Assembly: GCF_000003815.2 (NCBI RefSeq)
Contig: NW_023365704.1
Location: 181,742-245,741, forward strand
DNA: 64,000 bases
Origin: Branchiostoma floridae
Taxonomy: Eukaryota; Chordata; Leptocardii; Amphioxiformes; Branchiostomatidae
Direction: 5' to 3'
Part shown: positions 17,901 to 51,290 of the stretch, one piece after another
How the letters are laid out: every line of letters starts with the position of its first letter
Numbering within the stretch: position 1 is the first letter of the stretch
Position numbers and translations under genes: made by a program
The notes under the pieces: generated by a model
Seen by the model: only the letters and a program-made list of their open reading frames with translations
Told to the model about the DNA's origin: nothing
Database searches by the model: none

Positions 17901-20900
17901 AACTGTGATTAAACCATACAAAAACATGGAAATATCGGACTGACAGACCTTTGGGTAGAAAATTAGAAGACATTTGGCTGTTATTCTGATGATTTCTCGA
18001 TGCCAAGAACTGTTCTGCAAACTACACTCTATGGGAAAATCCTGCGGCACTCAATGGGGAAGGCGGTGTATGTACCTGGTGTGCTCCTCTACTTGTTTCC
18101 CAATTTATTTGACAGTGTTTTTTTTTTGTTTCATTTTATTTTAGTTTAAACAACATGCCCCGTAACAAAAATGTCCACATGTTGCATAACATTGTGGGAT
18201 ACAATGTAGCAGATTGTTTACTGTTGTTTTTGCAATTTTTCAATGCCAAGGTGGAAAAAAAACATAACTTTGATCATAAGTGCCAGCGGAGGAGGGATTG
18301 TAGCCTGAGTGTCATCCTAGGTAGCTTACCGGGCTCCCATACTCACCCCTCACAAACCAGAGGGGTGAGAATGAGAGCCTCGGTAACCAACTAGGATGAC
18401 ACTCAGGCTAGAGTCGGCCCTCACATTACTCTAAAAACCGGGCTTCATGCCAGTTTCAGATCAGTGTGGGTGGAATGTGATAGAATTTTCACAGATGCTG
18501 CGAAGATCTGTTCATAAAACTATGTATTACTAAGTTCTATCACCAATTTACCCCTGTAGCTCTTCAAGTGGGATTAACCCCACATATGTAAAATGTTACA
18601 AGGGACAAAGTGATATGCTATGTCTAGTCTACTATTTCTACACTCAGGCAACAATTCCTCTTCCACAGACGATAAAATTGACGTTGGCATTGAAAAATCC
18701 CTAACAGAAAAAATCTGCTACATTTCATCCCACAATTTTATGGACCCAACATGTGGACTTTGTTGTGTAGGGTTATGTTGTTTAAACTAGAATAAAACAA
18801 TGAAAACATGAATTGGAAAGAAAGTAAAGGAGCACAACCGGCATGATATTCCCATGGAGCATAGTTTGCAGAACGGATCAATAAATCATCAGAACAACTG
18901 CCAAATGTCTTCTAAATTTCTACCCGCAAAGATGTTATCCGCATATTTTATGTATTTGTAGGGTTTAATTCCAATAGTAAACCTACTATATCACAGTTAC
19001 CAATACAAAGCACTCATGGATGATATATACACTGACACTAATTGTTCTTAGGTCACCCATTAAAAAATGTGAAAAATTGATAAAAAAATATCACCAAAAT
19101 CAAATTCAAATGTCCCAAACAATATTTTCTATATATAACAGGCATACATTGTGAAGTTGTTAACCTTAGAGGGGTGAAATGCACTCCCGAAGATGGCATA
19201 CTTGTGTCTGCAATACAGCCTATAAAGTAGAATGCCCAGCTGGCACCACCTGCAGTCTCGTTCTGGTGCCATGACCCCGGATGACCCCGGAAATCCAACA
19301 TGGCCGCCACAACTGGAATTAAGGTAGCAGAACACAGTTTTTCTCCTATGGGGATTTCTATAGTTAAGGACCCCAAAGTGAGGTGGTTCGACGACTCAAA
19401 AGATATATCAGGGTGCAAAAGTAATTAACAAGAATTCAATATGTTGGAGTTCAGGGTAGAATCTACAACATATGTGAAAATGAGCATAAGTTTGTCGGCT
19501 CGTTTTCCCAGAAAGAACACTTTGAAATGACCCCCAGCGGAGGTCACCATACTGCAGCCGACACACGGAAGTAGCGGGAACCGGATTCGTGCGCGAAATT
19601 CTACCCAGCCAAAAAAGCATCGTAACCCAACTCATACAGCCTCAAAACTTACGTATTCCTCTACTATCCACCACAGTTTCCGACTCGCTGACGTGCACAG
19701 AAAAATTTCTATGGCTTTTCAAGAACTGCGACGACCTATTTTGTGCCCGGCCTATTTATGTCCACGGGGGTCGCCCATAAATACTGTGTTATGCGACCTT
19801 AAGCAAACTTGAACTGTCATTTCTTTTAATTCATACAAGAGAACAACTCTTGCTGAACATGTGTACCAAATATGGTTTTGTTCCAATGGACTTTCGCTGA
19901 GATATTGCGAACTTTGTACTTTGTTATCTCGCCGTCTGCCACGTGGGTACTGTCCTTGGTACTGTGCGTGCCATGTACAGGACTGTCTTGAAGCTGTGTG
20001 AATAAAATGTTTGCGATACAAACCTATTCTGCGCTTTATTGAAATCATTATTGATTGGAAGCTTTAGTTGAGCTAATTTCAAGGCTTTCTTTGTTCTTCT
20101 TTGTTGGAAGAAGGCTAGCAAGGGATTGTTTGTGTGTGTTGAGAGCTTACGTTAGGGGCCAAGAAGAGAGTAGCAGATAGATGGAGACAGACAAGTACTA
20201 AGGACTTTCTCCAGACTGTGGACAGAGAAAAAGTAGCAGAAACTGTAGATCTTGTAACCATTCAGTGCCCTTACGAGTATAGCTTTTATCAAAGTGTCAC
20301 TTTAGCGTGATTTAGGAATATCGCGGGGTTACGTAATGTCGGTCTCCCATGCAGGTGCAGACCTTATCATTGACGGTGGTGGGTGAAATGTGCCTTTATC
20401 TTTAATATTAATCCACTTATTATTGTTCCGTGTCGACGATTAAAAGAGTTTTACACGTTCAGACTAGATCATTTGCATGTGCGCCAGTTGGAAAGGGGAA
20501 GGGGGGTGTAAGGTAGTTCGCACCTCCGCTCTAAAATGCGGTCGCGCTTAGAAGAAACAATAATGTTTATTGCAAGTGAGAAGAAAAGTGCCGACTTGGG
20601 CATTATTCCTACACACTGTCTAGTCTGCAACAACCACGGTCGCTTCCTGACAAAGTTCGTTTACCATGGGTCGTCCAGCCGGTAGCCGAGCTTTGAAAAA
20701 TCGGATGGTTCGCAACAGCAAGTTTCAAGCTGGGAACACCCCCTGGAACAAAGCTTCACTAGCGGAAAGTGTAGAGAATACAGGGACGGAAGAGCCCTCT
20801 GCCTCTACCGTCGCGTCATGTAGCAGCTCGAGCGGCGTGGAGCAGGAGTCACAGTCGGAGCCGACACACACTGCGTCCGCCATCGATGTAAAAAAGAGGC

Positions 20901-23900
20901 TAGATGAAGACACGTACAAGATGCTCTGCAGGCCCAGAGATCGTGTCATCATCCCTAGACTCCGCGTTACCAAGACGAAGTGCTACACAGAGCCGAAGAG
21001 GTCTTACAAGAAGAACCAAGTAAGTGGAAGCAGAATCATCGATTTGCAAAAGATGGAAGATTTGATGAATCTGTTCAATGCCGGGCACCGAAAAGCGAAC
21101 GGCAAAAGGATCTGCAAAGGAGACTGGAAGTTTTCCAGAAAACTAGAAAAGAAGATAGGGTTCGGGTGTATGGAGGCGCTTACCTGCAAGACCTGCGGCT
21201 ACAATACCACACCCGCAGAGCTCTTCCGACACCCGTCGCCCGGGCGCCCGTGGCCCCCTCCCCGTGAAAAGCAACATCCAGGCCGTTACTCCCGGTGCCA
21301 AAGACAGGTACGGTATAAGTGCCATAAAGCCTTTAATGGCTTCGCTTGGCATTCCCGACCCGTGCCGCACAACACTGCAGAGAAAGATGAACGTGGTGGG
21401 TGAAGCCTACGCCGAATTGAATAAGAGACAGATGAAGAAGAGCTGTGAAACCTTGGCGGAGGTGACGCGCCATCGTGTAGAAGCGGGACTGCAAGAAAGC
21501 GCCTCAGTGGCAGTTGAGATGGATGTTGGGTATAACAATCCACCAAAGGGAAAGTCCAGAGGACAACCAGGGACACAAGCGGAATGCCCCATGTTTGATG
21601 GCGTGACGCAGAAGAAGATGCTATTGGCCTTAAGTACAGCAAACCAGCATTGTGTGGATTGCGATAAGCTGGAGGAGCAAGGCCTGCCATTCGGACCCGG
21701 CTCTCATGAAGGGTGTACCCGGACTTTTGAGAAACACATTAAGATGGGTAGCAGTGAGAGAAAGATGGCGAAGGAAAACACAAAGACAGCCTTGAAGAAC
21801 GGTATAATCCCGGGAATTGTCGAAACTGACAATGACTCTAAGATTTCCGGTGGCACCAACGAGGCCCTGCATGAAGCCGGCTTGCCTCCTGCAGAAAAAC
21901 AAGACTGTATGCAACATATGAGCAGAAATCACCGAAGTAAAGCGTACAACCTGTGTCTGGAAGTGTTTGAAGGAGGAAACAACACCAAGGTCACGAAACA
22001 GGAGGCAAGTCGGCGGGTAGGACTATATATTGTCGACAGATGCGTGAGGGCACTGTACACCGCCAGAGCACACCATCCTGATAGTGACGAGGACTTTTTC
22101 CGAGAGGTGGAACGCGGGCGCCCGACAATAGTTAGTTGTGTATCCGGGGAACATTCTGAATGCACTTCTGACTTCGGTTGTCCGGAGTACACCCGAGAGG
22201 GTCGCCGCCCTGCCCCAGACATTCCAGGCGGAGGGAACTTGGCTCTGTCCGACAACGACCGACGCACCCTGCAAAAGTTGGTAGACTATAGACTTGCAGA
22301 AGAATCAGTGAAAAGGCAGCGGACATTCATGAATACCAACAAGAGTGAAGCCTTCCACAATCGTGCTTTGAAGGCCGTCCCTAAGGCCGTAACGTGGAAG
22401 CGAAATTACGAGGGTCGTGTTCATGCAGCCGGACTAGCGGACTCCGTCGGATCGGGTTCCGCCATACTGCGAGCCAACGAATTCCTGGGTGCGGCGCATC
22501 CCCAGGGGAGTTCCGGGACTGCTGCACTTGAAGGCATCGACAAAGAAGAGGAATACCATAAGAAAAGGAAGGGGACTTTTAAATATAAGATGAGGCGCTA
22601 CATTCTGCGCAAAAGGAAGGTAGAACAGAAAGATAGGAAAGGGGTTGGATATGAGACGGACTCTGTACACGCTATGTCTAGGGGAGACCATTGTTACGCG
22701 AAGTAGGCGGACTATAAATCGTCTTATGACAGGAAAAACTGTCTTTAGTGCAAGACGCATCCCTGTCCTGCTTAGGGAAACGTGGAACCCTTTAGGTTTG
22801 GGGGGGGGGGGGGGTTCCGAGCTGGGGTGTGTGGGCTGAGGTGTGGGGAGGGGGGCGATGCTGAGAAGTCACCGTAAGACGCAGTTTCTGTATTCCCCGT
22901 GTTTCTGGCAATGTCCACCTATAAGACACGTCTTTCGCTCATTGTTGACATCATGCGGTTCTAAGGACAGATGTTCTTCTGCTACACATTTCTTTTGATG
23001 ACACAGATGACTTATATCTCTTCCATCAATAAATCCGTTGTACAGAAAATATGCAACCCTCGGTAGTCTTTCATCCCTACATTTAGGTCCAATCTGCACA
23101 CTTATTCTGCCGTAACCATCTCCATCGGTCCTCCCATTCCACAAAACACATCCTTTGTCATCTGTAGACACTTCGGCACGGATTCTTTGTAGCACAGATG
23201 CCTTGTACGCGTCGCTCCACGCGCTGTATCCCGCCATTGCTAATATATAAAACAGATGTGCTGTGGCCCCGTACAAGGCATATCTGGGGGCCGGCAATTG
23301 GTCTCATTATCTAAACAAATTTAATATTCCGGGTGACTTTTTCTTCTACAAGGAGCTTGCCAGACCATAATCTAACGTTCTAAGCGGTGGGGGTTGGGGG
23401 GTTGTCTTTTTTAGGGCGGAAAAGAGGGGTGGGGGTCGAGCGGGCTTGGGGCCACACTAAGTCCTATACTTAAGCATAGGGAGCGGTCTTGGCGGCCGTT
23501 GCCATGGTAACGGCGGGTGTGGCGGTAAAAAAAATGTTACATTTCAAGTCAGCCGACGTCATTCCCTAACATATCAGTCAAATTCAATGCCGTTTACCGT
23601 CCCTAGGGAATTACCACTGTGGTTAAAGGTAGCAGAACACAGTTTTTCGCCTATGGGGATTTCTATAGTTAAGGACCCCAAAGTGAGGTGGTTCGACGAC
23701 TCAAAAGATATATCAGGGTGCAAAAGTAATTAACAAGAATTCAATATGTTGGAGTTCAGGGTAGAATCTACAACATATGTGAAAATGAGCATAAGTTTGT
23801 CGGCTCGTTTTCTCAGAAAGAACACTTTGAAATGACCCCCAGCGGAGGTCACCATACTGCAGCCGACACACGGAAGTAGCGGGAACCGGATTCGTGCGCG

Positions 23901-24591
23901 AAATTCTACCCAGCCAAAAAAGCATCGTAACCCAACTCATACAGCCTCAAAACTTACGTATTCCTCTACTATCCACCACAGTTTCCGACTCGCTGACGTG
24001 CACAGAAAAATTTCTATGGCTTTTCAAGAACTGCGACGACCTATTTTGTGCCCGGCCTATTTATGTCCACGGGGGTCGCCCATAAATACTGTGTTATGCG
24101 ACCTTAACTCTATTGAATCAGCACTGGAACACCAGTGCGGAAGGCGAGGTTTTCGTAGTGCGCCCTGGTATAATTTTATCCGTGTCGATGTCAGTCACCT
24201 TGTAGTCCTTAACTATAGGAATCCCCATAGGCCTAAAACTGTACTATGCTACCGTAACTGCACAAGAAACTTTGCCCCCCTCCCCATCCGTCCCCTCCCA
24301 CAATTTTTAATATTTCCTGACAGTACATGTGTGTTTAGGTCCAAACATCACCCCTTACCTGACAGCCCGGAATTGAGTCCTGTAATGATTGTAAGCCGTC
24401 TTCAAGAACACGTGCTCGTCCGGATCTATGGGCGTGGGTTTCCTTACGTAGTTAGCCTTGGACGGAGCCCTCGGTACGTGTCTGGGTTTTCTACCGCGGA
24501 AGAACTGCAAAACAACCGGCGCTGCAGCTGGAATTCCCGGTGATTTCACTTGTCCGAGACGGCACAAAACGCCCGGAACTTGAGGAAACAT
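14901..24591 (-). CDS. MRPS26: mitochondrial ribosomal protein S26 (mS26)
   Basis: Minus-strand exons are 24591-24359, 17055-16912, 15532-15409 and 15035-14901, with phases that join exactly to give 211 residues (human is about 205). The N-terminus (MFPQVPG) is followed by RGRKPRHVPRAPSKANYVRKP and PIDPDEHVF, matching the mS26 signature 'GRKPRTDPPAKSK...PP.DPAE'. A long charged helix follows (RKRQEEG..., RENERMHQERLVREQR, EREQADLEM). The C-terminal block HFITLDNVEEAIESALADPK then NYNFAVDREG matches 'NFIT.ENLE.R+E.ALDS.KNYNWA+T+EG'. The protein belongs to the small subunit of the mitochondrial ribosome; the N-terminus probably serves as a matrix-targeting region. The first intron (17056-24358) is 7.3 kb and filled with nested mobile elements; the second contains another MITE. 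The gene converges on the secreted-protein gene. Confidence 0.93.
15889..16377. mobile_element. 489-bp pogo-type MITE, copy 1
   Basis: Ends are CAGTCAAACCTGTCTAAAGC and, inverted, CTAATACAGGTTTGACTG, flanked on both sides by TA. The interior repeats 'AGGTGGCCGCTAT'-type motifs. CAGT ends with a TA target duplication fit the Tc1/mariner-pogo (Tigger) group. A full copy is at 63025-63533 and a 5'-truncated one at 26449-26656. It lies in a MRPS26 intron. Confidence 0.75.
17285..17558. repeat. array of short palindromic hairpins (CAGCACTGG/CCAGTGCTG)
   Basis: About seven units are spaced 30-65 bp apart. The consensus is TTCAGCACTGG, then 3-5 bases, then CCAGTGCTGA. Clear units start at 17285, ~17325, ~17358, ~17426, ~17453, ~17482 and ~17513. 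Each can fold as a 9-10-bp stem with a tiny loop. A further unit occurs at ~24116-24140, beyond the transposon in the same intron, followed by the same GAAGG(T/C)GAGGTTTT sequence as the first unit. Confidence 0.8.
17582..19318. mobile_element. TTAA-flanked foldback element with ~700-bp inverted arms
   Basis: The left arm (17582 to ~18310) and the right arm (~18650 to 19318) are imperfect reverse complements (TTCCAGTTGTGGCGGCCATG ... CATGGCCGCCACAACTGGAA). TTAA lies at both borders (17578-17581 and 19319-19322). There is no coding sequence. The short loop region includes another, near-perfect hairpin (~18300-18412, arms TAGCCTGAGTGTCATCCTA). TTAA duplications are typical of piggyBac and Kolobok elements. 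It is non-autonomous. Confidence 0.8.
18300..18412. repeat. ~110-bp palindrome inside the foldback loop
   Basis: TAGCCTGAGTGTCATCCTAG at the left and its exact complement at the right bracket a second inner pair (ACCCCTC / GAGGGGT). Probably a small MITE inserted in the foldback element. Confidence 0.65.
19323..19798. mobile_element. 476-bp TTAA-flanked unit, left copy
   Basis: Starts GGTAGCAGAACACAG and ends CTGTGTTATGCGACC, an imperfect 15-bp inverted repeat. TTAA is on both sides (19319-19322, 19799-19802). It differs from the right copy at only two positions by eye. Confidence 0.8.
20666..22706 (+). pseudogene. Mutator-like transposase, interrupted by one frameshift
   Basis: Two overlapping frames, 20666 to about 21240 and about 21240 to 22706, read as one protein of about 680 residues with a single frame change near 21200-21260. 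The N-terminus starts MGRPAGSRALKNR and has an NTPWNKA box. A TCKTCGY zinc knuckle precedes the frame change. The second frame has the DDE-type core: D in VEMDVGYNN, CVDC...HEGC, ETDNDSK, then the CMQH (C-x2-H) motif common in Mutator-type transposases, then TNKSEAFHNRAL and GRVHAAGLADS. These blocks match the 'Mutator-like transposase domain' proteins abundant in aquatic invertebrates. There is no stop codon other than the frame change, so the copy was recently active or the shift is a sequencing error. A programmed shift is possible but no slippery site was identified. Confidence 0.75.
22869..23237 (-). CDS. I-PpoI-like His-Me finger endonuclease (zinc-binding loop family)
   Basis: An intact minus-strand frame of 122 codons starts at an ATG at 23235-23237, preceded by a TATATA stretch. 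The frame remains open about 20 codons further upstream but without an ATG. Zinc ligands fit the I-PpoI pattern: C30, C79, C84, H89 (site 1) and C104, C110, H113, C119 (site 2). The SHLCH motif places the catalytic base at H77, and the NNERK motif supplies the metal-binding Asn (98 or 99). Spacing between ligands equals that of the Physarum homing enzyme almost exactly. The family cuts DNA through a beta-beta-alpha-metal fold. It lies tail to tail with the transposase, 162 bp away, inside the same TTAA element. Its role could be target cutting or element homing; that is inference. Confidence 0.75.
   Translation of the reverse strand: MAGYSAWSDAYKASVLQRIRAEVSTDDKGCVLWNGRTDGDGYGRISVQIGPKCRDERLPRVAYFLYNGFIDGRDISHLCHQKKCVAEEHLSLEPHDVNNERKTCLIGGHCQKHGEYRNCVLR
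23628..24103. mobile_element. 476-bp TTAA-flanked unit, right copy
   Basis: Same orientation and length as 19323-19798, with two differences seen (TTTCGCC for TTTCTCC, TTTTCTCAG for TTTTCCCAG). It is flanked by TTAAA on the left and TTAA at 24104-24107. Together the pair looks like terminal direct repeats around the transposase region. Confidence 0.8.
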
Positions 24592-51099: not shown

Positions 51100-51290
51100 G
51101 TGCAGCTTGTCGGTTTCCCGTACCCTCACTATCCTTAGCGGAGGTCATGAAACTACAGCCGACGCACAGGCAGTAGTCTGGAACAGTATTAAGACGCAAA
51201 TTTACGCCGCCCGAACAAACATCGTAATCCAACTCATATGCACTCAAAACGTATTCCTTCACCGTCCAGCAAAGTTTCCACCGTGCATAG
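51100..51290 (+). mobile_element. diverged relative of the 476-bp TTAA unit
   Basis: GCTTGTCGG, AGCGGAGGTCATGAAACTACAG, CATCGTAATCCAACTCATA and ACCGTCCAGCAAAGTTTCC follow the order of 19480-19680 at roughly 65-70%. The outer ends are not recognisable. Confidence 0.55.

Follow-up and report, generated by a model that had tools for sequence, protein, structure and literature searches.

A KolobokP-like transposon in Branchiostoma floridae with a Mutator-like transposase and an I-PpoI-type nuclease between long terminal direct repeats

Architecture and ends of the element

We analyzed a 64,000-nucleotide stretch of the Branchiostoma floridae genome (contig NW_023365704.1, positions 181,742 to 245,741 of the forward strand; assembly GCF_000003815.2), hereafter the window, which holds a transposon that codes for a homing-type nuclease as well as a transposase. 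Matched on its published description, the transposon is almost certainly a KolobokP element of the Kolobok superfamily, inserted at TTAA (Kojima and Bao 2022, PMC9587614). An internal region (INT) lies between two long terminal direct repeats (LTDRs), with TTAA directly before the left LTDR and directly after the right one. Features are listed by window position, with strand and basis.

19319..19322, no strand: left target site duplication, TTAA (sequence)
19323..19798, + strand: left LTDR, 476 bp, bearing terminal inverted repeats of its own (direct comparison, copies elsewhere)
19799..23627, + strand: INT, 3829 bp, starting TTAAGC and finishing GGTTAAA (direct comparison)
20666..21403, + strand: frame with the transposase N-terminal part, PF20700 profile positions 1-65 (E 5.4e-06, 26.0 bits)
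21264..22706, + strand: main transposase frame, PF20700 (Mutator-like) profile positions 71-352 (E 6.3e-49)
21522-21524, + strand: transposase first D (sequence, alignment)
21828-21830, + strand: transposase second D (sequence, alignment)
21906-21917, + strand: transposase CxxH (sequence, alignment)
22347-22349, + strand: transposase E (sequence, alignment)
22869..23297, - strand: I-PpoI-type His-Cys-box nuclease, open 142-amino-acid frame (PF05551, E 5e-10)
22944-22946, - strand: nuclease putative catalytic N (alignment)
23007-23009, - strand: nuclease putative catalytic H (alignment)
23628..24103, + strand: right LTDR, 476 bp, 2 differences from the left LTDR (direct comparison)
24104..24107, no strand: right target site duplication, TTAA (sequence)

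The direct repeats emerge from a repeat search of the window, where 19321-19620 recurs at 23626-23925 with 99% identity. Each LTDR starts with GGTAGC and finishes with GCGACC, its outermost bases being GG..CC, of the RR..YY type, and direct comparison of its tips shows 14 of the first 16 bases inverted (15 of 18). The ends at 19323 and 24103 are also those of ten solo LTDR copies elsewhere in the genome. Because the two LTDRs differ at only 2 of 476 bases, the insertion is probably recent. A relic with 74% identity to LTDR positions 214-359 lies at 51137-51279 of the window.

The initial annotation had proposed a single transposon with a TTAA target, as in Kolobok, running from 19323 to 24253 between matching 47-base termini. 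The single transposon, its target and its left end are all borne out by the LTDR start and the flanking TTAA, and we could reproduce the 40/47 terminal match. However, the bounding direct repeats were absent from that account, and its right end has to be moved inward to 24103, as the matching stretch on the right belongs to a neighbor:

24157..24253, - strand: 97-bp tip of another KolobokP-type LTDR family, an inverted neighbor outside the element (genome matches)

In a genome search with this tip, the best 40 of 428 candidates were scored, one of them the window itself. Among these matches, the first ~95-103 of 146 bases fit 39 other places at 88-95% identity, some of them spaced ~1001-1005 bp apart in array-like fashion. 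The 40/47 match, with its TTAA/GTAA flanks, is what one would expect of a simple transposon bounded by inverted 47-base termini, one at 19323 and one at 24253. That explanation is scarcely tenable, given that its right-hand stretch comes from the LTDR tip of another family, found at many other places, partly in ~1-kb arrays, that the 476-bp repeats with inverted tips and exact TTAA set the limits of the element at 19323 and 24103, and that the solo copies with these same ends already contradict it. The termini of related full-length elements also lie elsewhere than the initial annotation had them. The LTDRs, the solo copies and the neighbor family's genome-wide matches thus lead us to reject a right terminus at 24253.

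Two predicted DNA-cutting enzymes

The transposase (+) and nuclease (-) frames lie tail to tail with 162 bp between them, as initially described and as confirmed here by open reading frame and family searches. The main transposase frame also has a CCHC pattern after the first D. In related transposases that are 22-35% identical to that of the window, the DDE, C/DxxH and zinc-finger positions are kept in the alignment rows that cover them, several rows being partial. Judged by its sequence, the protein is a Kolobok-type DDE transposase, with catalysis predicted from its family. The N-terminal frame, which at 26.0 bits falls just under the PF20700 cut-off of 26.5 bits, is out of frame with the main part. 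The change lies between about 21241 and 21267 and may be a mutation or an assembly error.

For the nuclease, PF05551 identified 32 places in the species' own genome and 0 in 14 control genomes. We fetched 30 of the 32 with ~1.5 kb on each side (less at L046, which meets a contig end); at the other loci, the tblastn-matched stretches are 30-54% identical to the window nuclease. From these 30 loci, we hand-picked 12 nucleases for alignment, one per group and with long enough frames, excluding near-duplicates and fragments. PF05551 is matched by all 12 and HNH_3 by 6. Thirteen columns are invariant, in window numbering C50, W53, Y62, S96, H97, C99, C104, H109, L110, E113, N118, R121 and C124. Among the C-terminal zinc ligands, C124 is the only invariant one, and the L039 sequence has no C-terminus. 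The window nuclease has Cys or His at all eight putative zinc-ligand positions, an assignment that draws partly on what we take to be the ligands of I-PpoI, and some of the other residue roles are likewise presumed. Further residue roles were taken in part from PMC9587614. A search with a profile built from the 12 nucleases retrieves, at E values up to 1, no hits other than five distinct sequences of I-PpoI, the best of them at 2.3e-08. The nuclease is, then, of the I-PpoI type, and its membership in this family predicts that it is catalytic. The matches to PF20700, PF05551 and I-PpoI support the initial suggestion of two DNA-cutting enzymes with a nuclease of this type.

Nuclease loci across the genome

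At 16 of the 30 fetched loci, the window's included, a related transposase lies upstream of the nuclease, tail to tail and within 1.5 kb. By sequence, these 16 paired loci make up about ten families. Another nuclease-bearing family forms an apparent tandem array with a unit of ~3.95 kb (L031, L032 and L061; G000:C10, about 11448500-11458076). At L030 with L071 (G000:C9, from 3110400), a 152-codon open nuclease frame lies between long, nearly identical inverted repeats. L046, L052 and L053 hold closely related nuclease copies, and no transposase was found in the DNA read there. L046 and L052 diverge from L053 at an apparent 3' splice site, and two of the three may hold an intron. Beyond L053, at L070, lies what we take to be the end of a plastin gene.

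Bounding direct repeats could be read in two other nuclease families. At L035, each spans 473 bp between its tips, and the pair is identical over 483 bp; at L038, an internally short copy, they measure 480 bp with 0 differences and TAAA on both sides. In a third family, L042, one repeat of 658 bp was read, and its edges are presumptive, resting on weak inverted tips (12/16) and on the point where the similarity of L042 and L044 stops. The tips are GGTGCA (L035), GGTCTC (L038) and GGTCTC/GGTTCC (L042, at the presumptive edges). The GGTAGC tip is found in the window's own family and in a second, related LTDR family, whereas L035, L038 and L042 have only its GGT in common with them. A blind search for inverted tips beside the 30 nucleases gave convincing pairs at few loci and noise at most, and the window's own LTDR was not among its four rows shown. 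Because of this noise, the other loci were excluded from the tip comparison.

About 35 bases inside the LTDR, at 19358-19368 of the window, lies a box, CTATAGTTAAG, that is common to the window family, L035/L054 (with one change in L054) and the inverted neighbor. Beyond it, the LTDRs of L035 and of the neighbor are largely unlike the window's or diverged. Downstream of the nuclease in other loci the box was not found, save for two-mismatch look-alikes in L030 and L039. It is perhaps a transposase site.

Solo LTDRs, arrays and junctions

A genome search with the element's initial 101 bases, in which the best 40 of 783 candidates were scored, gave several matches spaced 980-986 bp apart. The 20 regions fetched from these matches hold solo LTDRs and arrays of the LTDR with a short interior. 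The array units of 980-986 bp are a short form, with ~366 bp of the interior matching the end of the window INT at 85-89%, and arrays of the window's LTDR family are all of this form where seen. Nine of the ten solo LTDRs are full 476-bp copies, and L016 has a small deletion near the right tip. By our reading of the flanks, six of the ten are directly flanked by a perfect duplication of 4-6 bp: TTGT (L016), ATGT (L022), TTAAAA (L023), TTGA (L024), TTAA (L025) and ATAAA (L026). In L017 and L018, the duplication is offset by one or three A, and in L020 and L021, the flanks match at 3/4. Arrays have comparable flanks, equal over 4 bp in L010, L011 and L012 and matching at 3/4 in L014.

Other arrangements occur as well. 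L028 is an LTDR-INT whose right-hand LTDR is missing. In L013, two INT-INT junctions, GGTT-TTAAGC, have no LTDR and have lost 3 bp, and two LTDRs are separated by just 5 bp (TTAAA); these junctions adjoin assembly gaps. Structures of all these kinds have been described for KolobokP (PMC9587614).

A proposed role for the nuclease

The DNA itself displays the architecture of the element, its ends and target duplication, the gene pair, the solo LTDRs, the arrays and the INT-INT junctions that lack an LTDR. A mechanism can be proposed in which the transposase would act at the inverted ends that each LTDR carries, mobilizing either the complete element or one LTDR by itself. The nuclease would break both DNA strands at a specific sequence, which probably lies within an LTDR or at its border. 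When the break is repaired with the second LTDR as partner, LTDR-INT units would be gained or lost, giving rise to tandem arrays. The part of the nuclease in this is the proposal of PMC9587614, by which nuclease breaks in or at LTDRs would lead to unequal crossover or circle integration, and arrays would depend on the nuclease.

Several observations weigh against reading the window element as a KolobokP whose transposase and nuclease work together. A search with the window nuclease alone reaches I-PpoI at no better than E 0.61, where it ranks below an unrelated chain at 0.03. With its transposase frame broken, this copy as read is probably non-autonomous. No transposase lies within 1.5 kb in 14 of the 30 fetched nuclease loci, several of which are short or stop-bearing fragments, and some flanks contain assembly gaps; the check set out with the initial annotation, whether the nuclease occurs in unrelated contexts, gives a mixed picture, with the transposase alongside at just over half of the loci. 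L030 and L053 have long open nuclease frames and still no transposase in a further 3.1-3.5 kb upstream. Finally, the INT-INT scar of L013, with its 3 bp lost, is unlike a simple rejoining of TTAA overhangs.

Could the nuclease be a passenger with no role in the life cycle of the element? Some published KolobokP families appear to be free of it (PMC9587614), and short-form arrays without a nuclease gene exist here, although these could be served in trans by a nuclease encoded elsewhere. However, the invariant columns persist across the 12 divergent nucleases, of which ten have a transposase next to them, and nonsynonymous divergence (dN) is below synonymous divergence (dS) in 3/3 close comparisons, which comprise only 2, 5 and 9 differences and use one locus twice. 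We consider a passenger unlikely.

It is tempting to go further and ask whether the nuclease cuts the tips of its own element. In the window family, the left junction TTAA-GGTAGC is identical to a ten-base part of CTCTCTTAAGGTAGC, the I-PpoI site as printed in PMC6294500. Joined tips, GCGACC-TTAA-GGTAGC, would form a near palindrome, and either these or TTAAGGTAGC would be candidate substrates. Abutted tips are suggested as a possible target in PMC9587614, where GGTAGC itself has 0 occurrences. However, the INT-INT scar does not look like a simple rejoining of overhangs, and the half-site is not kept in L035, L038 and L042. Because the tips of these three nuclease families agree with the window's only in GGT, an I-PpoI-like tip target is unsupported as a general rule. 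Cutting at the element's own tips is accordingly doubtful. A narrower version, in which the window family's nuclease would recognize the I-PpoI-like TTAA-GGTAGC and cut the element edge or the joined tips of a circle, each family's nuclease having co-evolved with its own tips, is similarly improbable.

A DDE transposase and a homing-type nuclease make an unusual pairing, and in the describing paper the role of the nuclease is only proposed (PMC9587614). A genome with about ten divergent nuclease-transposase families and many arrays is a good place for testing that role.

Comparison with known systems

The initial annotation knew of no described function for such a pair in animals. The pairing is real but already published, as KolobokP, with a proposed role for the nuclease and with three Branchiostoma species listed (PMC9587614). 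The nuclease resembles I-PpoI, the His-Cys-box homing endonuclease of a group I intron, in its catalytic and zinc-ligand pattern and in the profile match at E 2.3e-08, but I-PpoI is intron-borne, whereas the window nuclease rides a DNA transposon. The other Kolobok lineages described in PMC9587614 (Kol0, KolobokE, KolobokD and KolobokH) share the Kolobok transposase type and the TTAA target and are set apart there by the lack of LTDRs and by other accessory proteins.

The likeness to KolobokP extends to every feature that could be compared with the available description. The element has the LTDR-INT-LTDR structure, and its 476-bp LTDRs belong to the shorter of the two published length classes, ~450 and ~660 bp. 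Short terminal inverted repeats of its own and RR..YY ends, here GG..CC, mark each LTDR, and a short target duplication, here TTAA/TTAA, flanks the whole. The DDE transposase (+) has C/DxxH and zinc fingers, albeit in a broken frame in this copy, and the I-PpoI-like His-Me nuclease lies downstream of it on the opposite strand. The genome also has solo LTDRs and multimers of the form (LTDR-INT)n-LTDR, and INT-INT junctions miss 3 bp, within the published range of 3-4 bp. Altogether, we found no essential difference between the window element and KolobokP as described.

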